Shown here: positions 1,895 to 59,835 of the stretch, piece by piece | How the letters are laid out: each line of letters starts with the position of its first letter | Position numbering within the stretch: position 1 is the first letter of the stretch | From: Sialis fuliginosa | Lineage: Eukaryota; Arthropoda; Insecta; Megaloptera; Sialidae | Reading direction: 5' to 3' | Length of the DNA stretch: 64,000 nt | NCBI GenBank assembly: GCA_961205875.1 | Contig: OY540817.1 | Coordinates: 17,271,001 to 17,335,000 of the forward strand | Translations under genes and position numbers: made by a program | Notes under the pieces: generated by a model | Databases searched by the model: none | Told to the model about the DNA's origin: nothing | Seen by the model: only the letters and a program-made list of their open reading frames with translations

Positions 1895-2509
1895 AGTACC
1901 TGCCTTTTACTTTTAATTTCTTCCACCATCAGATTCGATTCTTAAAATTCAGTCTATCATAAATTAAATTAAATTAAAAGTTTTATTTCTTTACATAGAT
2001 TTTTATAAAAAGTAGTTTAATAAAAAAAATTCATAAGTATTATAAGCATGATTCATAATATGACACATTGTGTGCATATTTTAATTGTTAATTGCTAATT
2101 ATGTATAATTCGTTTTAAGAATGAGATAAGGTTAGGTTTAATGTCAAAAATATTATTAGCACATAAATTTAAAATGTTGTTACGTTTTTTACACATATTT
2201 TTATCGAAAGTTTAAAGTTCATTTTTAAAAATAACCCTTTTGATACCCTTTTTGTGAACTTGTGTGATAAATTAATGTGGGGGACAGACGTATGAGAAAA
2301 CAAAGATATAATATCGATTTTACAAAGATAGCTATATCGACATTGTAATTGTTAGAAAAGATAAACCTACATATCCGTCACAGATTTACTTATTGATAAT
2401 TATGTTTTTTTATTATTAAATTGAAATCAGCTGTGTTTAGGTATTGATTGTGTGTAGCAAATAGTAATGTTTTATTTAAATTTTTGTTAAAGTAAATAAA
2501 AAGTTTACC
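1895..2509. promoter_or_regulatory. Divergent intergenic region (putative bidirectional promoter)
   Basis: These 615 bp separate two start codons that point away from each other: the myristoylated-type protein on the minus strand and the ENPP gene on the plus strand. Both 5' UTRs and promoters should lie here. No convincing TATA box at a clear distance from either start was seen, so this call rests on gene orientation only. Confidence 0.4.
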
Positions 2510-5337: not shown

Positions 5338-7081
5338 AGCTTGTTAAAAAATCATAGCCAATTTTTTTTTAATTGTCAGACAGATTTATATTTGATAGAT
5401 ATTTTGAAACAGAATTGTAATATGGAAAATTTGTTTTTCTGTGCTTTTTAACGTAACAAATTAAAGATAGCTTCAATTCACTTTAAATGTTTTAAGGAGA
5501 TTTGCTCACTATAGTATGTATGTTATGGTAAATATATATAATTACCTAAACAAGTTATTTTTGTTCATTTTAAGATGAGCCTTGGGCTTCCAAATTTACA
5601 GTTAAATGAAATTGAAAACACTTGTGTATACTCTACAGTTTTTTACATGTATTGTAATATTGTTTGTGATTATTCATAATCTTTGGTAATTATGGATATT
5701 TACTGTAACATAAACAAAACACAAACTTAATTATATTTAAAAATAGAGGTATGCCAATGCGTGAGCAAAAGAAAACATACGCTGTGGGTTGTATAGAATA
5801 ATAATAGCCACGATTAACTTATTCTGACTATTTTTGCTTTATGCAATTCACCATTACTTAAACTAGAGTTTCCCAACCTTTTAGTAACCCAACATTCTAG
5901 TAAGGTAATGAAAACCATAAATAAAAAGTCTCCTTTACGAGGAAATTATTTAAAATGTAATGTTGAAGACATTTTACTATCATTTTAGTTGTGGTTGATC
6001 TGTGTAAGCCTTTTAAATTCATATGCCTTAATATTAATGCAACTGAAAAACTACTAATTTGTTAATTTGGTTTCATACCAGTTGGGAAGCTCTGCATTAG
6101 GCAATAAAACTGATTGTTGATAAATATAAAGATCTTTGGCATATCTTTGATATTCAGCAAGTACTTACATCTATTATAATAATTATAATATGTCATATAT
6201 TACATATTGTTACTGTTACCGATTACAACGAAATATTTTAAATTTTGAGCAAATTACACTCATCAAAAAAACTCGCTTATGTTGAATAACTTTGTGAAAA
6301 ACTATTATAAATCAGATTTTGAAGATTTCAATTTTCACTGTAATTACAGAGCTTGGAATATAGTTTCTAGAAATATTTTTGCTGAGTGTATATATATATA
6401 GGAAAATAAATTATTTAGTTACCAATTTAAAAGTATTAACAATGTGGATTATTTATTATGTATATATTTGTACATAGCCTTTGTACATTGTCCTTTTATA
6501 CGGTGTTTATATCATATTATTATAAACATAATATTGTTAACGTTTGAAAATTTTTTCATCATTGTGATATGTGTTTTATTAAATCTTATACGTATATTTA
6601 TTGATTAATATATTTTTTACCGAAATAGCAAAGATTTTCAGAAGGATGTCTATTTTTTTATCATTCTGAAAATTTTTGTTTTCTAAATAATTACATTCAA
6701 TTTGGTCCTGACCGAGAAAAAATAATTATAATATTTAAAAAGGGATACATTTTTATAAAATTGTAACAATAGGATAAAAATTTCCTAAAAAAAATGTTTT
6801 TCTATCAGAAAAACTAAAGAAAATTTTTACCTATTTGCAACATAAATTATAATTATTAAATTCTGTACATGAATTATTAAATAAAAGATAAAAGTTTTGA
6901 GCATATCTATTTTTGTTTTATTTTTATTATAATTATACACATGAACTTGATAAAAAATTCTGATTTTTAAAAATTGATAATAAAAAAAAAACAATAGCTA
7001 TCAAATTTAATTACCTTATACAGATAAGATTAACTAAATGAATTTTATTACATAGTCACATTTTCTACAAAAAACATCAAA
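5338..7081. other. Intergenic region between the two ENPP genes
   Basis: No coding sequence seen. It should hold the 3' UTR of the first ENPP gene and the promoter of the second. It contains a probable hAT-like remnant at 5873-6094 (listed separately). The rest is plain AT-rich sequence. Confidence 0.5.
5873..6094. mobile_element. hAT-like MITE remnant
   Basis: The left end CTAGAGTTTCCCAACC and the reverse complement of the right end (CAGAGCTTCCCAACTGG) form imperfect terminal inverted repeats of the TTCCCAACC type common in hAT elements. No matching 8-bp target-site duplication is seen, so the copy is old or its ends are mis-set. Confidence 0.45.
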
Positions 7082-9121
7082 ATGAATTCTATCAGTTTAA
7101 ATACATTTATAGTTTTTACTATTTTTCTATCAACGTTTATATTTTATACAAATTCAATTTCTACACATCCAATACTGATTATCATCTCATACGATGGATT
7201 TAGGTATGATTATTTTGAACAAAATCTTTCACCGAATATGGACAGATTACGTAAATTAGGTGCAACAACGGCTTATCTTAAAAATATGTTCGTAACTAAA
7301 ACAGACCCGAATCATTTCTCTATTGCAACCGGCTTGTACCCTGAAACACACGGTGTGATAGGAAATAATTTATATGATCCAGTTTTGAACAAGACGCTTT
7401 CATATGGGTATGATTTGTTTCATTATAATGATGATATTGATCCAATATGGGTAAGTTATACAAAAATAATTTAAATAAGATTTGTACAATTTTTTTGGTT
7501 GCAGATTCAGAATGAAAAAGCAGGAAATGGGCGCCATTCTGGGGCCATGATGTGGCCAGGAAGTGAATATTCATACGGAAATATCAGTGCTACGTTTATA
7601 CAAGCAATAAATTATGACATACCTTGGAAACGTCGTGTTGATACTGTATGTTTAATTAAGAAAATTTTTGATAATAAACATCTGTTTGGCAACATAATAC
7701 TTTGTAAGGTTTAAATATTAACATCAACCTAGTTTAAATAAGTTCATTTGATCTTCAGATACTGATCTTATCAATGTACTTTACTTAATTAAAGAGCTTT
7801 AACTACTAAACGATTCATCAAATTGATTTGAAATTTTAATATGTAATACAAATAGGTTTAGAGTACTATGTCGCAAAACAGGAGCCTTTTTAAATTCATC
7901 TACCTGAGACATATACATTAGGGTGGTTTTTAGATGGTGTTGGGATGAATTTTGACTGGCCTGCCCCCCCAAATTTTAAAAAAATGTGGAAAAATTATTT
8001 GGAGCTGATTTGTGAGGCAACCCAATCAAAATTCGTCCCAACCTCATCTTAGCACCATCCTAATGTACATATTTCATTATTTAATTTTTTTTTTGAGGTA
8101 ATGCAATGGTTGACACATGATACAACACCTGTAAATTTAGTGATGCTGTATATAGAAGATCCAGATGAGCATAGCCATGCCTTTGGACCTGACTCTAACA
8201 TGACATCATTGATGATTCAACATGTAGACAATATCACTAACTATATTGACCAACAATTGATAAAACACGGCTTACGCTCAATAGCGAATGTGATTCATTT
8301 AAGTGACCATGGAATGGACAGCGTCAGTCCACCTAATTTCATTAATTTGACTGAATATTTAACAGAAAATGTTGATCAGGCAGTTGTTAAGTCACCTAAT
8401 ATACACGTTTTTCCTGAAAAAGGTTTGTAAATATTGTCCTCTGTTTTTCTTTATATTATTGAAGTCCCTTATTGTTGTAAAAAATAAAAAATTTTAAACA
8501 TTTAATTGTAGTAAGTTTTTAAATATTATATATATATACCATTTTAAAGCTAATTACGTAATTTTTTGGTCCAATTAAACATACACAAACTTTTTTCATA
8601 ATTTATGTTTGCATCAGGTAAAGAAGACATAGTATTTGATCGATTAAATAAAATAGCTGTTCAAAATAACCACTTTAAAGTATACAAAAAAGAAGAATTA
8701 TTTGATCGCTGGTATATTAAAAATAATCGTAGAACTCCTCCAATATATGTGCAGGCAGATTTGGGGTATGGATTCCAGGATATGTATGAAAATGCTGAAT
8801 TTTATAAAGATAAATACGGAATTGAAAGTAAATAATGCTATTTATATTTGTACCTATGGAATTATTCTTAACATATTGTGTAATTTTTCAGTAACACCAA
8901 CAACGAAATACGGTGTTCACGGTTACGATAATAACATTTCTTCGATGTATCCTTTCTTCATGGCGAGGGGGCCTGCGTTTAGAAGAGGAGTTTCAGTACC
9001 GCCTTTTGAAAATATTGATTTATACAGTTTATTCTGTGAAGTGTTGAATTTAGTACCAAATGGTCATAACGGTACATTTGAAAATGTAGCAGATATGTTA
9101 GTTTCACGCAAAAATCAGTAA
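7082..9121 (+). CDS. ENPP-family phosphodiesterase paralogue, predicted soluble/secreted
   Basis: Exons 7082-7450, 7505-7645, 8098-8422, 8618-8827 and 8892-9121 give 1275 nt, or 424 residues. Exons 2, 3 and 4 have the same lengths (141, 325, 210) and phases as those of the upstream ENPP gene, which shows a tandem duplication. There is a signal peptide at about residues 1-27. The metal site is present: D38 (SYDGFRY), nucleophile T74, D193 and H197 (DPDEHSHAFGP), HLSDHGMD, and KYGVHGY. There are two differences. The residue after the nucleophile is Asp (TKTDPNH), where the neighbour has Tyr and most family members have an aromatic. The last exon also reads into a stop shortly after VADMLVSRKNQ, so the transmembrane anchor and tail are absent. 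I infer a secreted enzyme with changed activity or substrate. It could still be active, since all metal ligands remain. Confidence 0.9.
7916..8065. mobile_element. TA-flanked palindromic MITE in ENPP paralogue intron 2
   Basis: Terminal inverted repeats of about 40 bp with mismatches: CATTAGGGTGGTTTTTAGAT at the left, and the right end reverse-complemented starts CATTAGGATGGTGCTAAGAT. TA dinucleotides flank both ends (7914-7915 and 8066-8067). The size is 150 bp with no coding capacity. This fits a Tc1/mariner-type MITE. It ends about 30 bp before the exon-3 acceptor. Confidence 0.7.
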
Positions 9122-21272: not shown

Positions 21273-24200
21273 ATGTTGAAGTTTTTGTTGGTCGTTGCAA
21301 TCTGTGCTCTCGCAGCGGGTAAGTTTAATTATTTATTTTATTTTATTTAATACAATATTGATTACTGTATATCTTTAAAATAAATTAAATTTTGTCAAAT
21401 GATTTGTGAAAGAATGTGGCCAATTTTAACAAAATTGGCCACCTATGAAAAAATAATTATATTTCAAATGTTGAATTAAACTTCAGTTAAAGTTATTTAT
21501 TTTAAACTTAACATAATTTATAAACATACAACAGTTTAAAAAAATTATTTAACATCCTACCGCAGTATTTTCGGAACTTTGTAGACTTATGTCCGGTATT
21601 TAAAGGAGCTATTTAAAATTTGCAAGCTTGCAAACAATTTCAAACGAGTTTTCAAACTTATATATACGACAGTTCTCTTTGAGTTTTTAACAGATAGTTT
21701 CATTCGTAGTAAGTTGATTTTTCCCGTTTTTATTCAAGATTAGTAAATACACTTTACTAAATATACTTTACATACCTTTATTTTTACTTCCTAAGCATGA
21801 AATTATCTGTCACAAACTCCAATAGAACTATCATATATGTTTAATACCCCATTTGAATGTGTTTGCAAGCTTGCAATTTAGCGAGCTCCTTTATAATACC
21901 GGACATTATTATGTTATTTGTGATTTTTTATGAATTGCTATATTAATTCAATGGGATCATGTACTCCAGTTTCGGAACCACTGCCCTACCTTAAATGTCA
22001 TTTAAATGATTTTATATATAATATATGTATGTATTACCTCATACCAATAAAAATACGTGACTGAAAAAGCGTGTTAATTAATAAAAGACCAAACAATTGT
22101 TAACTTCTGAACCAGAAGAGGGAGCAACCTAGAACCACAAAAAGGTTTAGCTTCAATAGCCAAGACCTTTTGAATAAGGGTAATTTAGTGTCACCAATTT
22201 TATTTTATTTTCTTATTGTTAACATCTAAATCAAAAGAGGGGGAACTTAGTACCCCAAGTCAAGGGAATATAGCTGTCATCAATTTTTCCCTATTCTTTT
22301 AAATGTATAAATATTTTTAAAATTATTAACTTCTGTTAAGAAGATGTTAGAACCCTAAAAAGGTACTACTTCGAATGATATGTAATATCGTGTTTAGACT
22401 AAAAAGACAAAACATTTTTAAAACAATTCGTTTTAAAAATGTATAAGGTTTTTTGATATTTTATCAAAAAAACACAACACTGCTGTTTTGTCTCTTTGGT
22501 CTAAACACAGAATAACTTGTCTATTTTAGGACACGAGATCAGGAAAATTTATTTTTCGAGTAAATTTTTTTTTATTTGTTGAAACGACCCACATTTTAAA
22601 TTCTTAGTTATCAATATTACGAAACTGAGAAACTAATTATTGTATTTTTTGTTAAAAGTCTGTGTTATCTCTTGACCTGTGCTACTCATCGAAATTAAAA
22701 CTATAAAAATAACATTTAACATGTATATTTTTGTAGATAATCTACAAAAAAGTATTTTGAATTCAAGGCTAAAAAATAAATTCATTACATACATTTGTAC
22801 ACGTGCAATTAAACAGATATTTAGTTTATTACTGTTTATAAAAACAAACAAAATTATTAAATATAAGAATAAAATGAAATTGGATTACGTCATTTAAAAT
22901 TCTTATGTAGATACATATGTAGATATTTCTCGTTTTTGATTTCATGAATTATTTTAACATCTTATTAAATATTAAATATTTTTAATGAACTTTTTAACAT
23001 ACGACTACATCAGTGGCGAGGCGTGAAATTTTTAATAAGGGAAGCATATTTTGTCAATCCTCCCCCTCCTATTAACAAAAAAAACTAGTTATGAAACACA
23101 ATAAGTTCAAGCTTTTATTTTTTAAAATAAATTCTTATGTATTTATATAGTAACTAAATGATTCTACGTCTGATTTTCTTGTATTTTAGTCGATATTTGT
23201 ATGACGAGTTGAAGTTCACTGCAGGAAATTTCACTAAAAAATTTTGAATTTTTGATTTCGTTAAAAGTATGTTTATTGTATAGAAAATGGCGTGAAAAGT
23301 TGTTTGTGTCAAACCGCAGGTCTGTATCTCAAACCGTTCTCGAGATATAGCCTCTCAAAGTTTTAGTTTTTTCAAATTTTTGGAGAAAAAAGGCCATAAC
23401 TTTTGAACGGGTGGTCTGAATTGATTTTAGTTGACCGATTTGAAATCAGCGTGTCAAAATCTATATAATGACATGTATAATACTTTAAAATTCGACAAAA
23501 AAATTTTGGTCAAAAATCGACATTTTTTTAAGGTATACCCCTTTGAATTTTTTCGATTTTTCGCGAATTTTTTTTTTCGAGTTTTAATGTATTATACATG
23601 TCATTATATAGATTTTGACACGCTGATTCCAAATCCGTCAACTAAAATCAATTCCGACCACGCGTTCAAAAGTTAGGGCCATTTTTCTTCAAAATTTTGA
23701 AAAAATTGAAACTTTGAGAGGCTATATCTCGAGAACGGTTTGAGATACAGACCTGCGGTTTGAACAAACAACTTTTCACGTCATTTTCTATACAATAAAC
23801 ATACTTTTAACTAAATAAAAAATTCGAAAATTTTAAGTGAAATTTCCTGCAAATAACTTCAACTCGCCATACAAATATCGACTAAAATACAAGAAAATAA
23901 AACGTAGAGGATGCTGTTTTGTCACTGTATAATTTGTGTAATGTGGGGAATACGAAATCTTTAATTTGTTTAGGTTCTTTTTCTACAATTCCACCAGATA
24001 TTCCATGAATTCAACCAATCAAAGCTCGTTGTTCACTGTTTTTGGTCAGTCGTGAACGTGATCAGTGTATATCGTTTCTGCCCTTTTAAAATTAATTAAA
24101 ACGAAATTATATTTTTGAAGTTCTTGAAAACCCATTTCAAAGTTTAACAATATATAAATTTCTCATTATTTTTCAGAGGGTTACATGTACCTCCCGCGAT

Positions 24201-27200
24201 TCCGCCGAGAAGCAGGCTTTGGGCAGAGCGGTTCGTCTAGCCACGCCTCTTCTTCTGCGTCGTCGTCATCCCACGACGCGCCAGTGTACTTCGGTGGAGG
24301 TCCCCATCACGGTGGCGGGCACGGTGGGCATGGAGGACACGGACCCCAACACGGTGGTTATGGAGGCGGCCAGGCCTACTCAGGAGCTAGCGCCAGCGCG
24401 TCCAGTTCCAGCCAATCAGGTGGATGTAAGTAACTGATTACTTATATCAAAAAAATATAATCTTATAATAATAAAAAATGAATATAATACATAACAAAAC
24501 GCTAAAAGGATTCTACGATTTAAAAAATTAAATACAATGTTTTTAGAATCAAAAAGAAAAACTAGAGGTATCTTATTTGGAAGATCCTAATTGATTGGCA
24601 GATTTAGCTTTCAAAACTTAAAAAAAAAAACAAAAAAAAAACAGACTTAAAAAAACCAGGAACACTGAAATGTATACTTAATAATTAAATTTAACAGATT
24701 TCAAAAACTGTTTATATTTAATTATTAGGTATATTTCTCAGTGTTTTTAGTTTTTTTAAGTCGATTTTATTTTTTTCTTAAAATTAAGTTTTTTATTTTT
24801 CTCTTTTGAGTAACGTACCTTCGAAGTCCATGGTCAGATTCCTGTAGAAAACATTTCGGAGGGGGGGGGGGGGGGATAAATACATTGAGCAAAATTTTTT
24901 AAAAGTATTTTGAACTGAAAACAGGTTTTTTTAGAACACTGAATATTTTTTTGGGGGGGGGGGAGGTCATATGCGGCCCTTTTTAGATAGTGTTTATGCA
25001 ATGCGGCCCAAAAGGTTCAAAAGGTTGGACACCTATGACTTATATAATAAATATTGACCAAATAAAAACAATTTTTGTACAATTTACTTTATTTTCTTTA
25101 CTTTTACTTCGATTAACTTTAAAGCAAATTAAATAGAAAAGAGAAAACATAAATTATCTCAAACATTGAATTAATAGAATAGAAAGGTTCAATTTATTTT
25201 TTACTTTTATGTATAGTTAGAGTGTCGCGCTGGCACTTAATTAACAAAAACCGAGACAGTTACTGTATTATTTGCATAAAATTTAAATGAACAGATTTTC
25301 AGCGCTTGACAGACACCGTTTTTTTTCTTAAATGCCAGTTTGATTGAATTCACTAATACAGATCGAAGTCACGACGGCTGTCGTTCTTATACGGTGTTCA
25401 CACCAAAGAAAACAAAACAGCAACACGGTGTTTGAAAACACGTCGTATTTAAAAATGCATAGGCTTTATTGCACTTTTGTCAAAAAGACACGATGTTGCT
25501 GTTTTGTTTTTTCGGTCTGAACACGGCATTACACACCAGCAAAGCGTTTTTTAAACGCCTGCCGTACCATTTCGACGGAACTAAAATGCCACTGATATTA
25601 AATCACAAAAAAAAGATTTCAATTTAAAAAAAAAAAACATCTGCCAAGTAAATGCACAGTGCTTCCTCGTGCTAAATTCACTAAAACCAATAGTGTTCAG
25701 ATAAATTGCCTGGCATTGGTTAACCATTTAATTTTTATACAAATTTTACTAAAAAATCTTAGTTCGAATTTTTTCTTAAAACGCACCTGAATATTTTTTC
25801 ATATATTTTTAATTTTTTGACAATTTCAATCTAAATCTAAATTTATGCAAATGTCAAAATGACATTTAAAACGTCAAAGTGACATTTAAAACGCCAAAGT
25901 GACATTTAAAACGTCAAAATAACACTTAATATATCCAATCAAATATCAATTTAGAAAAACAAAACACGAATTTTTAAAATTAATTTAGATAAATCTTTGT
26001 AAGGGAATATTTTACAACAAACGTAGTAGACCCATATTATAGGAAATTTAATTCTCTACAAAAAATATTCTATAAAATTTTCTCGTTACATGTGTCGTTC
26101 TTGAGATATCTTGAAAAAAGAAATATTTTGGGGTGTTACCCCTCCCCCTTACACACGATTTTGATGATTTTGAAATGGGACCGTTCTCAAACCAAACCCA
26201 ACCATCCGACCAAGTTTCAATAATATCGGTTCAGTGGTTCATGAGTTATGCGTGTGACAAGGATTCAGGGGACAGACGGACGGACGGACGGACGGACAGA
26301 CAGACAGACACGGAACGAAAAGTGTTTGTCTTGACGTGAAATGGATAAATAAATTTAAAATTTTGAAATTGGAGAATTTTTTTTTTGTCTCAATCTGAAA
26401 CGATCACAAAGCGTCTCGTATCTTCGATATTGCGAGGAAGCAATAGTAAGCGCTTACATTTTATAATACTTTAATTGAATAACTTTTTGTTACTAGTTGG
26501 CGGAGGAGGCTTTGGTGGTGGTCCAGGATTTGGTTATCAACCAGGATACAATCAAGGAGGGGGATACAATCAAGGAGGAGGATACCATACAGGACATGTT
26601 GATTCTCACGGGTAAATATTTCCTAGAGCACGGAAAATATAAATATTACTATATAGATAATGTGTTATATTTTAAAGTTACTCTGAATTCTTATCGTATA
26701 TATTGTGCTCTATGCAGTTTTTTATATGTCATATTGCAACCAATCTCCGATGATGAAGCTGGGGGTTTAGATAAAAAAGAACTTATTGGTTGGAAATTAA
26801 CTCCCCACTAATTTTTTTCCGTCCTCATGTTTTAATATGCCTCATTTTATAAATTCTTCAGAAGGTAAGCACATAAAAATAAACTATTATGAAATAATTT
26901 TGATGATGAAATGTAAAAATAATTTTATCAGTCTACAATATGTATTCTTTATAACTATCCTTAGCAACAGAATTGTATAAATATAATGACCAAATGTAAC
27001 CGGTTTTGGTGTCAATAAACGCCTGACAATATACAATTATCATTTCTGTAGAAACACAAACAGCACCTATTCTAGTTTTTCCGTAAATAATATTAATAAT
27101 AATTTTTAAATATAAACTTTCTATGTTATATTTCATGTATCATTTTGACTGTACATACTTGACTTTTGTACTAATACATATCATGAAAAAAATTGAATTA

Positions 27201-29439
27201 AAAATTTAATGTTTTAATGAGATTTCTCCCCTTCCCTAGAAATCGAAAATATTTTCATAATTTTTTCAAAATTTAAAAAAGCACAATATCTAAGACATTT
27301 CTTCTTGATAACTCACCGCTCCCCCTTCCATCCAAACCACGGTCTACCTCTCTTGTGGTAACCATGTTAATGATATCATTTTGAAAATCTGCTCTTTAGA
27401 TCGTTACTAATATATTTCATTTCATTCAAGGTCCAATATTATAAAGAATTAGCTTGAGTGCAAATGCAAATTAGCTTCCAGCTAACGCTATCTGCTAGGT
27501 GTGAAATTGTTCTAAAATTGCTCGATATCTTAAAGCAGTGGTAATAAATATATAATAATGTAAGGTCATCATCTGTGAGTGTGTTGTTATTTATATTTAA
27601 TACCTAGTAAATAGCGTTAGCTGGAAGCTAATTTGCATTTACGCTGATGCAAATTTGGGCATGAATAAAATAAAATACTCGGTTTCAATAACAATAGTTA
27701 CCTCAAACTTTTACCTCGCAATTCAAGTTAAGTATAATATTATTAATATTGGGCAAGACTTGCAAAATAAATATGTTATTATCATTTGTATTTGGTTTTT
27801 ATAAGATTGTAGTTGTTCAGGATTTAAAAAAGAATCAACACAATAAAAAAAATTAATTAAAACATTATCAAACGTAAAATGAATGACGTGGCATTTTACA
27901 TTTTACCGAGTGTAAACAAAGGCAATGTTGTTTTTTTGTGATGTCGATCTTTAACTATTAAAAAGAACATCACGTACTAACCGAATTGTAATTCTTGGTA
28001 TAAAGTACTAGATGGCACGGTGCTGTTTTTTTAGTACCTAGTTTTTCGGCATAAGTCAAGGACAGCGGTTTTTTTCTTACTAACAGTGGCGTACCGAACA
28101 ATTTAAATCAATTTGATTTATTTTATGCTTTGGGCCATTTTTATAAACATTAATCATTTTTTTTATTATTGATTTTTAAGCTTAAGGCGAGTTGTTTTGG
28201 TTCTTAATTAAGCCGACGTTTCGTTATACATTGTAGTAAAAAATTAAATAGAGATCATTATATATTGTGACGGATATTGAGTTTATATTTCTATCTAAAA
28301 TAGCTCCCAGCTTCACAATCGAAGATTAGGAGCGGCGGAAAATCTCCTAACTAAAATACTACTTTATTATAATTTACGTGAGCAAATATACAGTTATAGT
28401 TCATATTCTAGTGAGTTTATATTTCTGTGACTGGCGTCCACAAAACACACAAGTATCAACACAAATATTTCCATTTTCATCGTATTTTTAACTATTTATC
28501 TTATCGTCACAGTCCTTCTAAAAAAAGTAATATTTTTATGACGAAATATATCAAACAAAACATATACTGTTTACTCGAACTAGACAAAAATTTATATAAA
28601 TAAAATAGAATATATGTATTATATTCTCTATCACAATTTCTTTACGTTTTTATGTATGTATTTGTTTTACGAAAAATTTTATCATTGAAAAGTTTTACCT
28701 CCAAAACTAGACGATAAACTTTAATATTTTTCTACTTTAGAAAAATCTTAAATAGTGTCCCATACTGTTGATTTAAAATAATTATATTGGAGTAATTGGG
28801 CATTTGCTTTACACGCTAGTGTCGCCAATCTTATATTTGAGCATATTTTCGGCAGCTTGTTATTGTTTACAATTATTATCTTAATATATAAACATTTTGG
28901 TGCGTATATACTATATGTATCTATGTATTCTCATCAGGCCCACATAACAATAAATTAGGCCTAAACCACTGGACGCATCGAAGCTATATTCACACCATAT
29001 GTTCGTTCGGTGCTCCAATAAGTTCCTAAATTTTTTGGACCCGGTAGTTGGCACTGGAGTGGAGATATTTACGAAAATGTGTATTTATGGTCTCATTTTT
29101 AAACAAATTATTTTTTGACAAAACAACGTTCGTCGGGTCAGTTAAAACAACAATTACAACCCTCCATACGTGATAGGGGATGAATATTAACTTCCGTACA
29201 AAGCTAGTTATAAATTAGTAATAACATATAGATGCAAATATATAAGTTAATATGTATTTTAATAAAGTTTTTAATATTTCAGAGCTGGCCTTCACTCAAG
29301 ATTCGGTGACGACGATGGTCCACAATCCCACAGAGTAAGTGGTACATCCCAGGGAGGTAAAGGCACCTTCAGCTCCAGCTCTAGCTCAGTGGGACCCGAC
29401 GGTAAGGTCCATTACCACGTCGAGACCGGCAAAACATAA
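21273..29439 (+). CDS. Secreted Gly/Ser/His-rich structural (cuticle-like) protein
   Basis: Exons 21273-21318, 24177-24425, 26497-26611 and 29283-29439 give 567 nt, or 188 residues, with matching phases. The first exon encodes a 15-residue signal peptide core (MLKFLLVVAICALAA), and the first intron follows it directly, as is usual for insect cuticle genes. The mature protein is low complexity. A Ser-rich segment (SSSHASSSASSSS) is followed by His/Gly repeats (HHGGGHGGHGGHG), then GYNQGGGYNQGGG repeats. It ends in a Ser run and SVGPDGKVHYHVETGKT. It has no chitin-binding R&R motif, so I call it a Gly-rich structural protein of cuticle, silk or chorion type without choosing between them. The three introns span 7.6 kb and are filled with MITEs, while the coding exons are clearly more GC-rich than their surroundings. 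Confidence 0.8.
21590..21905. mobile_element. PIF/Harbinger-like MITE, copy A
   Basis: Terminal inverted repeats start TGTCCGGTAT and end ATACCGGACA. The 3-bp target duplication TTA is present on both sides (21587-21589 and 21906-21908). Size 316 bp, non-coding. It lies in intron 1 of the Gly-rich gene. Subterminal palindrome TTTGCAAGCTTGCAAA. Confidence 0.8.
22390..22508. mobile_element. Short fold-back MITE (GTGTTTAGAC family), copy 1
   Basis: The left end GTGTTTAGACTAAAAAGACA and the reverse complement of the right end (GTGTTTAGACCAAAGAGACA) form near-perfect inverted repeats over 119 bp. A related copy lies at 25392-25526 in the next intron of the same gene. Confidence 0.65.
23011..23927. 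mobile_element. hAT-type fold-back element, copy 1 (intron 1 of Gly-rich gene)
   Basis: The left terminus is CAGTGGCGAGGCGTGAAATT and the right terminus is CACTG. The interior is a long inverted repeat with arms of roughly 340 bp, starting CTTGTATTTTAGTCGATATT at 23179 and mirrored up to 23892. It is homologous to the element at 53054-54074 in the opposite orientation. The right subterminal part is shorter here, and no 8-bp target duplication is seen, so one end is probably rearranged. Confidence 0.7.
24848..24970. repeat. Dispersed repeat with poly-G tracts, copy 1
   Basis: A run of 15 G (24861-24875) is followed by ATAAATACATTGAGC, then TATTTTGAACTGA, then a second G run. The same order of parts occurs at 60395-60520. 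G runs of this length could form G-quadruplexes and are prone to slippage. Confidence 0.55.
25392..25526. mobile_element. Short fold-back MITE (GTGTTTAGAC family), copy 2
   Basis: CGGTGTTCACACCAAAGAAA at the left and the reverse complement of the right end (CCGTGTTCAGACCGAAAAAA) form inverted repeats over 135 bp. The family matches 22390-22508. Confidence 0.6.
25853..25930. repeat. Short tandem repeat, 20-bp unit, about four copies
   Basis: The unit GTCAAAGTGACATTTAAAAC repeats with single-base changes in intron 2 of the Gly-rich gene. Confidence 0.7.
26270..26311. repeat. GGAC/AGAC tetranucleotide microsatellite at a dispersed-repeat tail
   Basis: GACGGACGGACGG runs into CAGACAGACAGACA. 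It is preceded by TCGGTTCAGTGGTTCATGAG, a sequence I recall in front of GGAC repeats in dispersed insect repeats, so this is likely the tail of an old retroelement. Confidence 0.6.
27431..27640. mobile_element. PIF/Harbinger-like MITE, copy E (truncated)
   Basis: It starts TCCAATATTATAAAGAATTA and contains TTAGCTTCCAGCTAACGCTATC, with the complement AGCGTTAGCTGGAAGCTAAT on the other side. It shares its interior with copy F at 48215-48531. The right terminus is not recognisable, so this copy is truncated or rearranged. Confidence 0.55.
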
Positions 29440-31402
29440 ATACTCTTCAACATTGTGATATATGATATATGTATAAATAGTGATTAAGTTATTAATTATA
29501 TTTGTTACAAATATGTAAATTTTTCAACTGTATAACACTTGTCTGCTTTAAACGAAAATATTATGATAAATTTATTTTATAAATGCAGTTTTTTATTTTA
29601 TTTTATTAATAGTAATATTTAGCTAAGATTAATTGATAATACAGGTGACCTTCGAAGGCTCAGGTAAGTTTTTCGAAAATTTAAAGAGTTTGAACAAAAA
29701 CTATTTTTCATGTTTTTTTCCTTGTTTTAAATATGTTTTGTGACATTTAAGAAGGCCGTCATCAAGATCAATTGTATTTTTTAAATTGCATTCTTGTCTG
29801 GTACTTTTTAAATATCGCACATTGGAAGGAAAAAGAGCAGTGGCGTAACCAATGAGGGGCCAAATGGTTATACTATATACACAAATTTTACGATTCTTAA
29901 TTTAAGTTTTAACTTTTGTGTCGTAGTACTTTTTGTAATCATTAGCACGTGTCCATCACTGGGTTCTTATTACTGGTTTTACTTTATCCATTACTGGAGA
30001 AAAAACATAAACAAAATAAATGGCTACATATAATTAAAAAATATATATATTTGCGGACTTGGATAATTAAATTGATTTAACAAAGAGGTACTTGTTTTAT
30101 TAGTAACATGAATTTATGATAATTACACAAAAGAAGTCCATCAATCCCAAAAAACAGTACACCTTGCTCTTCATACAATTTTTATTTTTTATTATTTTCG
30201 ATTTAAAATTGTTCATTATCATAATTTTCATCAAATAGATGATTTTAGAGTGGAAAAATCAGAAGTTCTCTATAAAATTACAGTGTTCCGGCTGTACATG
30301 TTCTTGAAGTTTAAATAAAGGGACAAGGGGATAAATATAATTTTTTGGGTAAATTTTCGTTTTTTTTTTTAAACTTCGTAAGATGCGATAAAAATGGACA
30401 AAATTTTACAATTTATTTATTATAATATGTATTTCATATTCTAATGACGTATCTACCTATAAATATAAACCTTAATTTTTAAATATATTTTATATAATAT
30501 ATTTTTATCTTTCAGATATTCAAACATTACAAGTATTTCCATTTAATATATGCAACTTTGTAGGTATTTTATACTATTCTGTATTAAAATTAATCTTAAA
30601 AAATAAACATTACATAAAAAAACAAACAAAGTTATCTGATTCACGCAAAAAAATATCTACTTTAATGAAATACATATTTCTGTAACTACAATAACAATTA
30701 ATATTGTTGAAAGACATGGGTGTAGCCAGGATTTTGTTTAGGAAGAGGTAATTTTTTTTAAACCGATTTAGTTGGCGCGTTTCGCCTAGGACGCTGATAT
30801 AGATAATTTAAAATAAAGATTTTGCCTAGAAATATCACTGTTAAGCTAATTGATTTATTTACTTGTTACTTTTTTCCACAAGTTAAGGGGAGGAGCAAGC
30901 GTCCCCCCCCCTGCTCATGTTGATAAATATATACATATTTTAATTTATTATTATCCTTTCATTGTTATTGTAATTAATTCAAACACTCGAATGATAACGT
31001 GACTAAAAATATCAAACTAACCGGAAAATGATATCAAAAACAGCAAAATATTATAATGTGAATGTGAAAATGCAAATAATTTCCATTATAACTGTCTCCT
31101 TGAAATGACCACAGTCAAAATGAAATTTACTATATCTATACCTTGCATAAGGTAAATTATATAAACTAATAAATTGTTTCAAATTACACGTAATTGAATT
31201 CTCTCCCTCCCTAATTTATTATCATATCTTTTCATTCTTTCTACGTGGCTATTCTTATCAAATTTATATCAGTTGAAAAACCACATATATATACGTCAAA
31301 TATAATCCTTTAGTAAACTAACGTAAATGTTATAAAACAATTAAATTTCGGCATTTTATAGTAGATTCTTTCAGGTCACAAGTACGCATACATCGTCGAA
31401 AA
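29440..31402. other. Intergenic region
   Basis: No gene seen. It has a short CAGTGGCGTAACC hAT-like end near 29845 and a run of C near 30901. The promoter of the Lys/Glu-rich secreted gene lies at its right edge. Confidence 0.5.
31286..31293 (+). promoter_or_regulatory. Possible TATA box of the Lys/Glu-rich secreted gene
   Basis: TATATATA lies 117 bp upstream of the ATG at 31403. In DNA this AT-rich, such a match is weak evidence. Confidence 0.3.
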
Positions 31403-32369
31403 ATGAGGTAATTTAAATTTTAAATCAGTGTAACCGGTTTTGGATTGTAGATTACAAATATACCTATATTAAATAATATTTATTATTTTTTAGGTTGTGG
31501 TTAATTTTAACTATAGTTTTTGTATGCGTTTTCGTAATTTGCGAAGTAGAGGCGAAGAAAAAGGATAAAGGAAAGGAGTTGAAGAGTGATGAACATGTGA
31601 GTAAAAAAGGAGTTGAAGGTGAGGGTAAAGAAGCAAAGGAAAGATATTCTGATAAGGGGAATAAGAAACATAAAAATAAGGAAAAGTATGTTAAAGGGAA
31701 GGAAGGTAAAAAAAATAAAAATAAAGTTAAAGATGAAGTAGTTTCTGAGGAATCTTTGGGAGAAAAAAAAACTGTGAAGAAACGTGATGTGAGTGCAGAG
31801 GAAAAGGTCGATGTTAAAAAGGTGAAGAAAGAAAAGACAAAAAATGTAGTTGTCGATGAAAATGTTGAAGTTACCAAAGAAAATAAAAAAAGTAAAAGTA
31901 AAGTTTCTAAAAAAGAATCTAAAGTAAATAAAAAAGACAATCTTGAAGAAAAGATCGAAGCAGAAGAGATAGTAACTGAAGATGGAAGTTGCAAGAAACA
32001 AAAGAAATCTAAAACTGAAACGTGTAAAAAGTGCAATGAAAATATTGAAGAGCCAAAAATAACTGAAGATCATCCAGAAAAATGTACAAAATGTGGAAAA
32101 CCTATGAAAGAAAAACAAAATGCCGAAGATGTTAAATGTGAAAAGAAGTCATGTGGTGATAAGAAGAAAAAAAGGTCTGTAGAAACTGAAGAAGTGATAG
32201 TTGAAGAAACTGAACCAGAAAATGTTGTAGAAGACGTTGAAAGGTAATTATTTATGGTTTGAAATTTGAGTATATTTATTAATGAGTCGTATATTTTAGC
32301 ACAATTGAAGAAAGTGAAGAAAACGCAGTTGCTGATGAAGAATTAACTGAAGAAGAAACTAATAAATAG
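31403..32369 (+). CDS. Unrecognised secreted Lys/Glu-rich protein with CxxC cluster
   Basis: Exons 31403-31407, 31494-32243 and 32300-32369 give 825 nt, or 274 residues. The first exon holds only ATG AG, and the joined codon gives Met-Arg-Leu, leading into a signal peptide (LWLILTIVFVCVFVICEVEA). The mature protein is extremely rich in Lys and Glu, with little hydrophobic sequence, so it is predicted to be disordered. Around residues 165-220 there are paired cysteines (CKKC, CTKC and single Cys), a pattern that could bind metal or form disulphides. It is followed by KKKKRS, a possible furin-type site, and an acidic C-terminus. I do not recognise a family. It could be a lineage-specific secreted or mineral/matrix-binding protein. 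The Tctex1-type gene starts 292 bp downstream on the same strand. Confidence 0.75.
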
Positions 32370-32446: not shown

Positions 32447-32452
32447 AATAAA
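32447..32452 (+). promoter_or_regulatory. Polyadenylation signal AATAAA of the Lys/Glu-rich gene
   Basis: A canonical hexamer 77 bp past the stop codon and about 210 bp before the start codon of the next gene, so the two genes are closely packed but separately terminated. Confidence 0.6.
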
Positions 32453-36162: not shown

Positions 36163-39100
36163 TTAATAACAGCCATCCATCCAGTTGCTTTTAGCTGAAG
36201 ACGGTCGGCTAATGTGAGAGCCTGGAGGCCTATAAAAACATAAAACATATAGAAAAAAACAACAGAGGTTTATTAATAACAAAATATAATATTTGTGATT
36301 TTTTTGGGTTTGGTAAAAGGTAAAAGCATTAATTTACAGTATTTAAAAAAAATATTAGAGTTAAAATTTATTTTTTATAGTTATTATACACAGTCTGTTC
36401 ATTTATTAAATTCCCATTTGAAAAAATAAACGTCGACCATATCAAAAATTAAATTTCCCTTTCAAATTTTTTTAAAAGCATTATTTTTAAGTATTTTAAA
36501 AAACCGCTAGTTAAAAATTAAATAGCATGTCCACCTTCCAGTTATGTTGTGATGAGTTCATTACAATTTTAGTGATTGCGTGATTTTCAAAACCTTATCT
36601 TTTCATGTTCTTAATACCTTTATACATTTTACCTGTCGATAGGGTCAACTTTAAAATTTAAAATATATCTGAAGAGATGGTGGGATAATTTACTAGGTCA
36701 CGATCATTTAAAAATAATTTTGAATGTTGGTGAACAAAGAACGATACATATTTACTAATGTAAATTTAAGCTGTCTGAATTTTAAAGATTTTTGTCTGAA
36801 ACTAACAAATTTCAGTAAAAAACTGTTACCAAAATAATTTGAAATTTTAATACATAATATTAAACAATGTCAAGTACATTTCAAGACCATTCTGAAATTG
36901 TGATTTATAGTTCCGTTAAAGTTAAGGAGTATCACAAATTTAGTTCGTAAGAAAGACAACCCAACATAGAAACAATTGTCGCATGTGTGAAAGACATACG
37001 AGATAAAACATGTAGTCATTCTCTTCAGAAAAACAAAACAGGGTACAACAGTGTAAGAACAACAATTAGTACAGAAATGTTAATACTGTTATTTACTTTA
37101 GAGAAGATCGGGGTGCGGGAATACGAGAAACCGGCCTTGGTATTCCAGATCCAGCTGGGGCGGCGGCTGTGGGAATTCGTCTGGGAAGCGCCGAGGCTCC
37201 CCCTGAGGGTGGCCGCAGACCGGGGACTGGCTCGTTCTGGGTACTTGTCTGTTGCTGGGACATCGCCGGCATCGTTGATGTTTCAGGCATTGATTTAACT
37301 TCCATTGGCTTCACTATCATCTGTGTTGATAGTTAATTATTTAAACAGTATATCGTAATGGATACAGACGTTAAATTGATGTAAAATATTGCATTAGAGT
37401 ACAAAATTGCTTTGAAGTTAATTTACTAGGTTGAAACCTCTTAAAATGACAATGTTATAATACTCACTGTCGGCCTGCATTCCACTTTCATTGGCCTCAT
37501 CTCCGGTTTTCTCAGCTCAGGTTGTCGTATCTTGCTGAACGTTTTTGGTGGGTTTATTGCTTTAACTAGTACTTCATTTGTCGGTCTTCGGCCTGGGCTT
37601 GAATGTGCTGACTTTATCACTCTGGTTGTGTCATGTATGCAGTCGTCACTGTTTGTTTTTGATATTGGTGACAGCGCTTCAGAGCTAGACCATATCTGTC
37701 TCGATAGGTTTGAGTTTAGTTTTGGTGTTGACATTATTTGATGCAAACCTGAAATATTTAAAATAGAAACTTATAAAATGTTTTGTTTTTATATTTAGTG
37801 ATGACAATATGGTAATGCTCAAGGATTTAAAATATATTAAGAATTTTAGTTTTCAAATTGTTAAATAATGTAATTTACCTGAAAAAATATTTCTCTGTTG
37901 CAGTTTGCAGTATATTTTAAATATAATATATTAGAATAAGCTAAATATTGATAAATAAAATAACCAAATTGCACTTTTTATCGTTATGATAATACTAACA
38001 AAGTATTAAAAAAATTTCCTGTGATATTAATTTTTTGCTATTTTAAAAAGACAACAATTAACTTTAATTCAATAAGTAAGTTAGATAGCAGAAAATTTTT
38101 CAAGCAAACTGAAAAAACACCTATTTGTTGACACCACAGAACTTATTGACATCTGTGATTGACACATTGTCAAGGAAACAAAATATAGAAGTATACAGGA
38201 TGAGTCAATAGTTTCTTTGATATCTCTTCTTTAAATAGAGAAAACATTCCAATTTTGAATGATATTTATTATATATTTTCATAAAATGAAAACTAAAGCA
38301 TTTTTCATAATAATATATCCTATGTTTCTCCCTTAAATATAAGGTAATGTTGAATATTTTATGAAAATTATTTCAAAGGTTCTTAATATTTTCATACATA
38401 CTTTGTTCTTGCATCCTCGCTAACTGGTTAATTTCCTCCACGTTCAACATCTTCGCTGATGACATACTGCTTTCCGACGTGCTGCTCGTTCTGTCGTCTA
38501 GACTTTCAGTAGACCCACTGGATATCGTTTTCGTTTCATTGAAAACATCGTTTGGGTGTTTGAACTCCATGATTGTATTTACTTGCTCTATCGAAGAGAC
38601 TGTTTCAGAAGGCACTTTCATGTACGTGTTATTGAGTTCTACCGGTTTACAAAACGTCGCATTCATATCTTTATTGATTGTTTTCAAATCGTCATTTGTG
38701 TATTTCACATCTATATTTTTGTTTATGTAGTTCACATCTGTATTTTTATTGAATGTTGTATTCAGGTTATCTTCTTGAGATATTATTTTTGTCGTGTTGA
38801 AATTTTGAGGTCTATTGTATACATCTATGATAGGTATATCAACTTTTTTGATATAATTTGTATCCGATACTTTGTTAAATGTCGTATTTATTTCATCTTG
38901 ACTTTCAAAACATTTTTTTAAACTTGTGTCTACATTTTTTGTGAATGTTTTCAGATGATCAGGATTTACGGCAATCTTTTTTGTAAACGATCTGTCAAAT
39001 GTTTTATTCATATCAACAAAAACATTTTTTTCTTGTTCCGGTTCTACTTTATTAAGTTCTGAAGAAATATCATTAAGAACAGTAAATTTGGCACTTTTAT

Positions 39101-40521
39101 TCTTTTTGAAAGTATCGAAGCAGGGGGTATTGTTTATAATACATTCTGGTCCCGAATTTTCATTTATTGGCTGCGGGATATATTCTGTATTTCTTACAAA
39201 AGTTTCATCACTTCCAGAGGAATACTGGCATGGTATATCAGACACAGTTATCGTCGTATTTAAATCAAATCTCTCGTCATTTAATTCGGCTTCGTCTTTG
39301 GTAAAAGTATCGTTCTGTTCTTCTAAGTCCTTGATGAAAGTTTCATTCATTTCGCGTACATTATTTGCGAAAGAAGTATCATCTGGTTCTTCGCATAATG
39401 TACGGTCTTCATCATTTGAAGTGACAGAAGTAAAAGATAAATACAGGTCTTGTGGCTGATTCATTGCTGTTATAAAATCGGCTTCTGTTAAACTGTTCAT
39501 ATTAATTGACGCAAAGGAATTAACTAAACTTGGCGGCGACATATTCTGAAACGAATCTCCACTAGTCTCCATTATATTTTCAAATGGGTTCTGAAACCGT
39601 TTTTCGAAAACATTTGGCATTTTCTTAACCGCACAGTTTTCTTTGTCAGTTATAAAAGACGTCAGTTTGTGTTTGAGCATCGGATCAAAAACAATATCAC
39701 TCTTTTTAGACTTGTTGCACTGTAAATCTTGAGCTTGTTCATCAATAATACTCTGTAAATTTTTTGATAGATCGTATGGGTTAGGAACGGGCATTTTGTT
39801 TGTATCATCCAGTTCTACAAGACTGTATCTACCTAACTGGAACTTAGGTTTTGTGTTAATACTATTAAATATTTGAGCAGGCTCTTCTTCAAGTTTAAAT
39901 CTACCAGTATCAGACAAGAATGGATATGTGCTGTTATGCCTTGAGTAAATTGATTCAAAACTAGAATGCTGGCCGGGTAGGTCGTTGAATGAATAATTCA
40001 GAAACCGTTTGTCAACAAAACTTTCTAAACTTGGCCGACTCATTTTTTTCTTAGGGCGAGTGAATGTTCTGGAATCGATATGATTTTTCATTTTGTTGTC
40101 CAATTTTCCAATTGCTTGTTGAAATAGAAAACGTTGGCTTAGGTAGTCAGAGTCTTTTATTTGATCTATATCTTGCCGTAACCAGGAATATGTGTCTGTG
40201 ATATGTGAATTAGAATTATCCGTTTGACATAACCTGGAAATTTAATAATTGGTTAATATTGTATCTACAAAGTTATAATATAATATAGTTATGTATATCT
40301 ATTATATATGTATATGTATAGTGTAGTACATACCAATTTTCTGAATCTGATAGATCCACATCTTCAAGATCAATTATATCTTCATCTACATCAGATAATG
40401 AAGTTGAACTACTTGTAGCTTCAGATCTGATGTTTTCAAATTTCATTTGATTTGATTCTGTTTCCCGATCCAAGTCTCTTACAAATTTTAGAAGATCCTG
40501 AACCTCCTTAGTTACATCCAT
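36163..40521 (-). CDS. SLAIN: SLAIN motif-containing protein (microtubule plus-end tracking)
   Basis: Exons in coding order: 40521-40334, 40233-38402, 37748-37468, 37320-37097, 36229-36163. They total 2592 nt, or 863 residues. Exon 2 does not run to its in-frame stop near 38373. A GTATGT donor inside the CAA-AGT codons joins it to 37748 and restores ARMQEQSLHQ, matching the SLAIN2 motif ARMQEESLRQ. Likewise exon 4 ends before its TAA and splices to a short last exon ending NWMDGCY, like the vertebrate end WKDGCY. The N-terminus is a short helix. The C-terminal SGIP and SRIP (residues 825-828 and 832-835) are SxIP-type EB1-binding motifs. SLAIN proteins recruit XMAP215/ch-TOG polymerase to growing microtubule ends. 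The large central region carries about eight degenerate N-x-T-F-x-K repeats that I do not know from vertebrate SLAIN. Confidence 0.88.
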
Positions 40522-58200: not shown

Positions 58201-58721
58201 ACGAAGATTTGAGAAATGTGCCGATATAAAATATGAAAAATTATAGATTTTATAAATTTAATTTTGTTTAAAATAGTGGCATAATTTGTGTGTATATCTA
58301 CTATTTTATTGTATCATTTAATAATCTCTAGATAATTCTCCCTCATTCTCGAGATCATTTTTTTTTCAAATGAAATATCTACCCTGATGTAAATAAAATT
58401 GATTCAAAAAAATTTAGAGCATAAATATATTACGTTATTTGTCTCCTTACTCTTATCTCCGGTATGGTCTAGTGGCTAGGATATCTGGCTTTCACCCAGG
58501 AGGCTCGGGTTCGATTCCCGGTACCGGAATTATAACTTTTATTTTTTATTTTAATTATACTTATCATATTATATTACATAACATTACACAATAAACTCCA
58601 AAAAATTATATAAGTAATGATATTTTTCAATTTTTAGAATGAAAGAAATCAAAGAAATATTGTCGCAAGAACAAAATCAATGTCAACACCCACTTCAACA
58701 GAAAATACTTTTATAACTTAA
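49224..58721 (+). CDS. Class A peptide-type G-protein-coupled receptor (FMRFamide-receptor-like)
   Basis: Exons 49224-49357, 51040-51215, 52319-52585, 54132-54469, 56132-56291, 57429-57691 and 58638-58721 give 1422 nt, or 473 residues. Seven membrane segments are visible: TM1 with GN, TM2 with D63 (LAVAD), TM3 ending in ERW (117-119) in place of DRY, TM4, TM5 with P275, TM6 with CQSP, and TM7 with NLNAACNFLLY in place of NPxxY. ERW and N-x(3)-NFLLY are typical of the FMRFamide-like/TRH-like invertebrate peptide receptors. The ligand cannot be assigned. Extracellular loop 2 is long and acidic, with three N-glycosylation sequons (N222, N230, N250) and Cys239. I see no cysteine at the usual start of TM3 (position 93 is Ile). 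Exon 5 uses the second of two nearby AG acceptors, because only it keeps phase. The introns hold many MITEs and one tRNA gene. Confidence 0.88.
49622..49955. mobile_element. PIF/Harbinger-like MITE, copy B (GPCR intron 1)
   Basis: TGTCCGGTATCATAAAGG at the left, CTTTATAATACCGGACA at the right, TAA duplicated on both sides (49619-49621 and 49956-49958). Size 334 bp. Nearly the same sequence as copy C at 60932-61263. Confidence 0.82.
50611..50955. repeat. Degenerate tandem repeat, about 150-170 bp unit (GPCR intron 1)
   Basis: CCTAAATTTTT followed by GGTACAAATCGTGAATTGTACC occurs at about 50621 and again at 50771. GACACAGTGTT-GGACACC occurs at about 50754 and 50927. The GGTACAA...TTGTACC part is itself a small hairpin. 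Confidence 0.6.
51547..51944. mobile_element. Pogo/Tigger-like MITE (GPCR intron 2)
   Basis: The left end CAGTGTAACCTTAATATAAC and the reverse-complemented right end TAGTGCAACCTCGATATAAC are terminal inverted repeats of the pogo/Tigger type, flanked by TA. The interior contains further ATATAACGA-type subterminal copies. 398 bp, non-coding. Confidence 0.7.
52620..53006. mobile_element. TA-flanked MITE with CAGTCGCCTGCA ends (GPCR intron 3)
   Basis: CAGTCGCCTGCA at the left and TGCAGGCGACTG at the right are perfect 12-bp inverted repeats flanked by TA (52618-52619 and 53007-53008). 387 bp. A diverged inverted copy lies at about 57744-58125 in the last intron of the same gene. Confidence 0.75.
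53054..54074. mobile_element. hAT-type fold-back element, copy 2, with perfect 8-bp TSD (GPCR intron 3)
   Basis: It starts CAGTGGCG and ends CGTCACTG. Both flanks are TGCTACGG (53046-53053 and 54075-54082), a perfect 8-bp duplication that marks a hAT-superfamily insertion. The interior inverted repeat has arms of roughly 350 bp (from 53269 to 53987). Size 1021 bp with no transposase. It ends only 57 bp before the exon-4 start of the GPCR. Confidence 0.88.
56740..57235. repeat. Three degenerate copies of one segment in GPCR intron 5
   Basis: CATTTTTGAGTTAGAAAAAA with GATCTACATTTTGACACC (about 56740-56815), CATTTTTAAGTTAGAAAAAA with GATCTACATTTTGATATC (about 57026-57098), and CATTTTTGATTAAGAAAAAA (about 57158-57235) are related segments separated by poly-G and poly-C tracts. 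Confidence 0.55.
57744..58125. mobile_element. Diverged inverted copy of the CAGTCGCCTGCA MITE (GPCR intron 6)
   Basis: CACAAATTTAGTAGGCTCCT and TTTGATTATTATAATATTTA match the reverse complement of the right part of the element at 52620-53006, as do the sections around ACAAAGACAGATATTTTGAA and AAAGATAACCGATGAT. The terminal repeats are no longer recognisable, so the ends are approximate. Confidence 0.6.
58458..58529 (+). tRNA. tRNA-Glu (anticodon TTC), inside the last GPCR intron
   Basis: 72 nt. The acceptor arm TCCGGTA pairs with TACCGGA, followed by discriminator A. A-box TGGTCTAGTGG, anticodon loop CTTTCAC with anticodon TTC, B-box GGTTCGATTCC. It is followed by a T-rich pol III stop (CTTTTATTTTTT). 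It lies on the same strand as the GPCR, 108 bp before its last exon. CCA is not encoded, as expected for a nuclear tRNA. Confidence 0.97.
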
Positions 58722-59763: not shown

Positions 59764-59835
59764 TCCGGTATGGTCTAGTGGCTAGGATATCTGGCTTTCA
59801 CCCAGGAGGCTCGGGTTCGATTCCCGGTACCGGAA
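59764..59835 (+). tRNA. tRNA-Glu (anticodon TTC), second copy
   Basis: Identical to the copy at 58458 across the 72-nt body, with the same A and B boxes and a following T run (ATTTTTTATTTTT). The flanks differ from those of the first copy, so only the tRNA body is conserved. Confidence 0.97.

Follow-up and report, generated by a model that had tools for sequence, protein, structure and literature searches.

Sequence analysis of a Sialis fuliginosa gene predicted to encode an exported, lysine- and glutamate-rich protein with clustered cysteines

The gene at 31403-32369 and its neighbours

The window analysed in the present study, i.e., the whole stretch of 64,000 nucleotides from contig OY540817.1 of Sialis fuliginosa, carries at positions 31403-32369 of the forward strand a gene model in which three exons join in frame to give 825 nt, corresponding to 274 aa and a stop codon. 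A complete gene had been proposed here in the initial annotation, and all of its described parts were found to be present with exact coordinates. The features of the gene and of its product are as follows.

31105..31151, + strand: rival first coding exon (ATG at 31105 or 31120, donor at 31152); donor fits 8 of 9 consensus bases
31286..31291, + strand: TATA-like box TATATA (pattern match), 117 nt 5' of the proposed ATG; a chance match is likely in this AT-rich DNA
31331, + strand: second TATA-like match, TATAAA (pattern match)
31403..31407, + strand: proposed first coding exon, ATG AG, phase-compatible with exon 2; donor GAG/GTAATT fits 7 of 9 consensus bases
31408..31493, + strand: intron 1, 86 nt, GT-AG
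31494..32243, + strand: exon 2, carrying nearly the whole protein, including the entire hydrophobic core of the signal
31495..31554, + strand: signal sequence, residues 3-22, with predicted cleavage after VEA (residue 22), by hydropathy and the -3/-1 rule
31777..31785, + strand: KKR, residues 97-99, possible proprotein-convertase site (sequence pattern)
31990..32154, + strand: cysteine segment, residues 168-222, C-x10-CKKC-x16-CTKC-x14-CEKKSC
32161..32175, + strand: KKKKR, residues 225-229, possible proprotein-convertase site (sequence pattern)
32176..32243, + strand: start of the acidic tail, which runs on into exon 3 (residues 231-274, net charge -19)
32244..32299, + strand: intron 2, 56 nt, GT-AG
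32300..32369, + strand: exon 3, end of the acidic tail and stop codon, with frame and Glu-rich composition kept
32447..32452, + strand: AATAAA poly(A) signal (pattern match), 78 nt 3' of the stop codon

The coding frame of exon 2 is free of stop codons, whereas its two other frames contain 45 and 21, and the longest open run of the exon, 249 codons, was reached by none of 1000 dinucleotide shuffles (median 48, maximum 118). With intron 2 retained, the frame ends immediately at VEDVER, followed by a stop codon. Synonymous codon choice did not favour coding (-0.8 nats relative to background) and is uninformative; GC3 was 0.225 in the gene and 0.310 in the seven training stretches, one of which contained a stop codon. 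Judged by its frame, composition, cysteine cluster and charge layout, all read from sequence, the 31403-32369 stretch looks like a real protein-coding gene. It is very improbable that a purine-rich tract is merely open here by chance: purine-rich strands do avoid stops, the antisense strand is likewise open at this place over two long frames of 201 and 213 codons, and codon choice does not help, but the contrast between the three frames and the result of the shuffling argue against such an accident, as do the phase-compatible splice sites and the presence of a signal sequence and a poly(A) signal.

When the window was scanned in all six frames for paired CxxC motifs or long charged stretches, no further gene of this type came up at those criteria. 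The output consisted of three stretches, namely, the open reading frame of the gene itself, positions 31601-31738, which are a shifted-frame reading of the same tract, and positions 36873-37079, an antisense Cys-bearing stretch with 10% charged residues. Nothing of use was seen among the short repeats around the gene, and its exons contain no tandem array.

The upstream neighbours include a WD40 gene (Pfam WD40), which we take to be DCAF6-like, and a gene with a sub-cut-off TLC match, presumably TRAM-like. Downstream lies a Tctex-1 gene, with its ATG placed 293 nt after the stop codon of the 31403-32369 gene, followed by a parkin co-regulated gene and a rhodopsin-type GPCR (Pfam). None of the genes in the neighbourhood hints at the function of the 274-aa protein. 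Additionally, a Gly/Ser-rich gene with three or more exons is located at 24177-29439 (+), with 24177-24425, 26497-26611 and 29283-29439 joining in frame to a stop codon; Pfam gave no match for its first part or for the open reading frame over the second. Positions 2480-9121 (+) are occupied by type I phosphodiesterase (ENPP-like) genes, at least two in tandem, whose N-termini appear signal-peptide-like by eye.

Signal region, charge layout and cysteine segment of the predicted protein

The signal peptide claimed earlier has its counterpart in a signal-type N-terminus, in which a 16-residue hydrophobic core (residues 3-18) is followed by EVEA/KKK, with V-E-A at the -3/-1 positions and predicted cleavage after residue 22. 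Thus, an N-terminal core and small -3/-1 residues, as expected of an exported protein, were found by hydropathy and the -3/-1 rule (not by SignalP). In the AlphaFold2 model, the N-terminal helix has a mean pLDDT of 89 and 87 in the first two ten-residue blocks of exon 2. No second hydrophobic segment is present, the best 19-mer past residue 25 averaging -0.09 on the Kyte-Doolittle scale. The 274-aa product is therefore likely to be exported, charged and cysteine-bearing, as far as prediction goes.

When ATG codons within 30000-31491 were considered, 17 phase-compatible ATG-to-GT combinations were found, five of them with a donor fitting at least 7 of 9 consensus bases. The ATG AG exon at 31403 is plausible and is not the only first exon that fits. 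The rival start at 31120 would place MKFTISIPCI ahead of RLWLILT, and the exon at 31403 provides a cleaner signal peptide than this rival does. Since the hydrophobic core is located in exon 2 for either first exon, the signal is independent of which of them is used. Moreover, the sole Met beyond residue 1 is residue 206, so the ATG-started product of a transcript initiated in exon 2 could not be the 274-aa protein.

Among the Anopheles CPR genes with introns, 86% are interrupted in the signal-peptide region, and the first exons are 3-36 nt long, with a median and a mode of 12; the authors' caution that several first exons may fit applies to the 31403 gene as well (PMC2259329). The first exon of the caddisfly caz genes is always short and encodes a portion of the signal peptide, while the second is long (PMC11092239), and the first exon of a moth H-fibroin gene encodes 10 residues (PMC9684489). 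Against these layouts, the five-nucleotide first exon that the initial annotation called unusual is ordinary. In insects, a first coding exon only a few nucleotides long is common ahead of a signal peptide, which is a useful correction for readers of raw insect sequence.

The protein contains 66 Lys (24.1%), 54 Glu (19.7%), 32 Val (11.7%), 7 Ala (2.6%) and 4 Pro (1.5%) among its 274 residues and is hydrophilic beyond the signal, in agreement with its previous description as Lys/Glu-rich and highly charged. AlphaFold2 models, which were run on the single sequence with no relatives supplied and are weak evidence on disorder, had a mean pLDDT of 50.2 for 249 residues (164 of the 249 below 50, with the N-terminal helix alone ordered) and of 54.3 for a 76-residue cysteine piece; most proteins come out poorly ordered from such models when relatives are lacking. 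A single-alpha-helix (SAH) rod was considered and rejected because the protein falls below shuffles in E/K i,i+4 patterning: of 2000 shuffles, 99.85% equalled or exceeded its score.

Charges are distributed more blockily than in shuffled sequences (P = 0.003 over 5 residues and 0.0155 over 25 residues). The net charge is +13 for residues 23-99, 0 for 100-165, +9 for 166-230 and -19 for 231-274, which amounts to +22 for residues 23-230, and the mature chain is near neutral overall (+2.4 at pH 7.4). The basic run noted earlier ahead of the acidic tail corresponds to KKKKR at 225-229. Only four Arg residues occur (2, 52, 99 and 229), three of them in the mature part, and two lie in KKR contexts (97-99 and 227-229). 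Two or more KKR were present in 1.2% of mature-protein shuffles (P = 0.012); in a Lys-rich protein, this rarity is insufficient to prove convertase processing. Given the near-neutral chain with its +22 and -19 parts, a cut at 229 would give a polycation with all seven cysteines of the mature part and a polyanion, and a putative cut at 99 would further divide the polycation.

Seven cysteines (168, 179, 182, 199, 202, 217 and 222) follow the signal region within 55 residues, and two others, at 13 and 18, are inside the signal. The CKKC and CTKC pairs and single cysteine mentioned in the initial annotation are borne out, with a total of seven after the signal. A span of at most 55 of the 252 residues was obtained in 0.047% of random placements (P = 0.0005), and the two CxxC motifs are non-significant given this clustering (P = 0.088). 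The best Pfam match of the 65-residue cysteine segment was the double zinc ribbon DZR_2 (PF18912; E = 0.00089), at 19.5 bits against a cut-off of 27, with 14.0 bits for the whole protein, which places the protein outside this family. At E ≤ 1, the segment matched ten Pfam families, eight of which have names or known functions that point to zinc, metal or iron-sulfur binding, and ten shuffles (five cysteine-fixed and five full) matched at most one family each, with a highest score of 17.4 bits; DZR_2 appeared in one of the ten, at 10.8 bits. These scores suggest a slight zinc-knuckle-like character beyond the ten shuffles, below every curated cut-off. Two CxxC pairs, the second present here as CTKCGKPM, are common to the segment and to zinc ribbons (Pfam DZR_2 and DZR), from which the 274-aa protein differs in its DZR_2 scores under the cut-off and in its predicted export. 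Zinc-cysteine sites are uncommon in exported proteins. A role in matrix, metal or mineral binding is speculative.

Profile scans against Pfam, NCBIfam and PHROGs gave no family above the cut-off. The sole NCBIfam match was rubre_like_arch (13.3 and 15.5 bits against a cut-off of 32), and the only family matched in a Pfam scan with the three remaining pieces of the protein was DUF7488 (13.5 bits, cut-off 27). A phmmer search of the PDB found no match at E ≤ 1 for the whole protein and nine for the cysteine segment (best E = 0.079). The latter were taken as noise: two were PARP1 chains and seven were C2H2-finger-like, being presumably C2H2 fingers from their names; three of the alignments were inspected, and all of them rested on EKCTKCGK-like letters. 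Scans with the cysteine segment yielded 8 pattern matches in IMG/VR and 106 in GTDB contigs, none confirmed as a relative by tblastn. The previous statement that no family can be recognised therefore holds across Pfam, NCBIfam, PHROGs, the PDB, IMG/VR and GTDB contigs. A literature search found no recognisable description of the protein, though one may be in print.

Interpretation of the product and alternatives

On balance, and with modest confidence, the gene is best explained as encoding an exported, intrinsically disordered, disulfide-capable polyampholyte, possibly convertase-processed, which would most likely have a structural, adhesive or packaging role in a secretion or in the extracellular matrix. 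The signal peptide would be cleaved after VEA, and in the oxidising environment of the secretory pathway the seven cysteines would engage in disulfides within and between chains, one of them being left over for a partner because their number is odd. Convertase cleavage may take place behind KKR (99) and KKKKR (229), thereby parting the Lys-rich body (+22) from the acidic tail (-19), which would have kept the precursor near neutral until then. Export is supported by the location of the core wholly in exon 2, with the first exon ending within the signal, a layout that is characteristic of one family of exported insect proteins (PMC2259329).

The main rival, which we regard as unlikely, is an N-terminally anchored membrane protein with an uncleaved anchor that includes residues 3-18, a cytosolic Lys-rich body and CxxC pairs binding zinc there. 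One basic residue precedes the hydrophobic core and KKKDKGK directly follows it; by the positive-inside rule, basic residues behind the core favour an uncleaved Nout-Cin anchor, which counts against export. The zinc-knuckle lean of the cysteine segment, with its ten Pfam matches against none or one per shuffle, counts in the same direction because zinc knuckles are mostly intracellular, and the AlphaFold2 model contains a 21-residue helix. At the same time, the c-region EVEA suits signal peptidase, the 16-residue core is short for an anchor, and every Pfam match is under its curated cut-off, with shuffles scoring as high as 17.4 bits for another family. One N-terminal hydrophobic segment and a Lys/Glu-rich body are also shared by the KEKE-type ER proteins triadin and junctin and by RRBP1, an ER protein with an N-terminal anchor and a cytosolic Lys-rich body; this likeness is one of general layout, and these proteins retain the segment as an anchor, whereas a signal-peptidase site is predicted here.

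A preproprotein releasing the cysteine-bearing basic peptide 100-229, e.g., for defence or signalling, with its basic and acidic flanks discarded, would account for the position of the cysteine part between KKR 97-99 and KKKKR 225-229 and for two of the three mature-part Arg residues being within KKR sites; it is quite improbable for a product as long as 130 residues, with an odd number of cysteines, a poorly ordered cysteine half (mean pLDDT 54.3 without alignment) and no peptide-family match above the cut-off. Still less probable is that the protein belongs, as a constituent of cuticle or silk, to a known family from which it has diverged too far for the profiles used. The exon layout does resemble that of the CPR, caz and H-fibroin genes, and the Gly/Ser-rich gene with three exons joining in frame lies immediately upstream, but the R&R consensus (chitin-binding domain) gave no match at E ≤ 1 in Pfam, which sets the protein apart from the CPR family. 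In the arthropod CPR cuticular proteins, the first intron likewise falls inside the signal-peptide region behind a first exon of 3-36 nt, whereas cysteine makes up 0.03% of the mature Anopheles proteins and 7 of 252 residues here (PMC2259329). The caddisfly Caz and PEVK-like proteins (Limnephilus lunatus and Hesperophylax occidentalis) are alike in being secreted and of low complexity, secretion being predicted in our case; the Caz proteins consist mostly of Ser/Thr-rich repeats, unlike the array-free exons of the 31403 gene, and the 57-kDa L. lunatus PEVK-like silk protein contains 19.6% E, 19.2% A and 14.8% V (PMC11092239). By this comparison of composition only, the 274-aa protein, with its few Ala and Pro residues, falls outside the PEVK-like group.

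Returning to the exported polyampholyte, low-complexity secreted proteins are already a known kind, and this one, if secreted as predicted, would add an unplaced, disordered, charge-patterned member to the poorly catalogued arthropod secretions. The charge split at the basic sites provides a simple and testable model in which a single chain would be kept soluble during storage and would set afterwards. In its boldest form, to which we give a slim chance, the gene would specify both partners of a complex coacervate on its own: within the secretory pathway, cuts behind KKR and KKKKR would turn the near-neutral precursor into a Lys-rich, disulfide-linkable polycation (+22) and a Glu-rich polyanion (-19), and the two would phase-separate and solidify into an adhesive or a matrix.

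Other elements of the window

A 622-codon open frame is located on the reverse strand at 38373-40241 and has no Pfam match at E ≤ 1. Positions 23163-23908 are occupied by a large foldback element, MITE- or foldback-like, whose inverted arms measure 145 and 207 nt and are 92% and 91% complementary; the inner arms are 41 nt apart. At 25849-25929, a 20-nt unit with the consensus AAACGTCAAAATGACATTTA is repeated in tandem about four times (88% matches). Finally, the forward strand carries two tRNA-Glu (TTC) genes, equal in Rfam score and approximately 1.3 kb apart, at 58458-58529 and 59764-59835.
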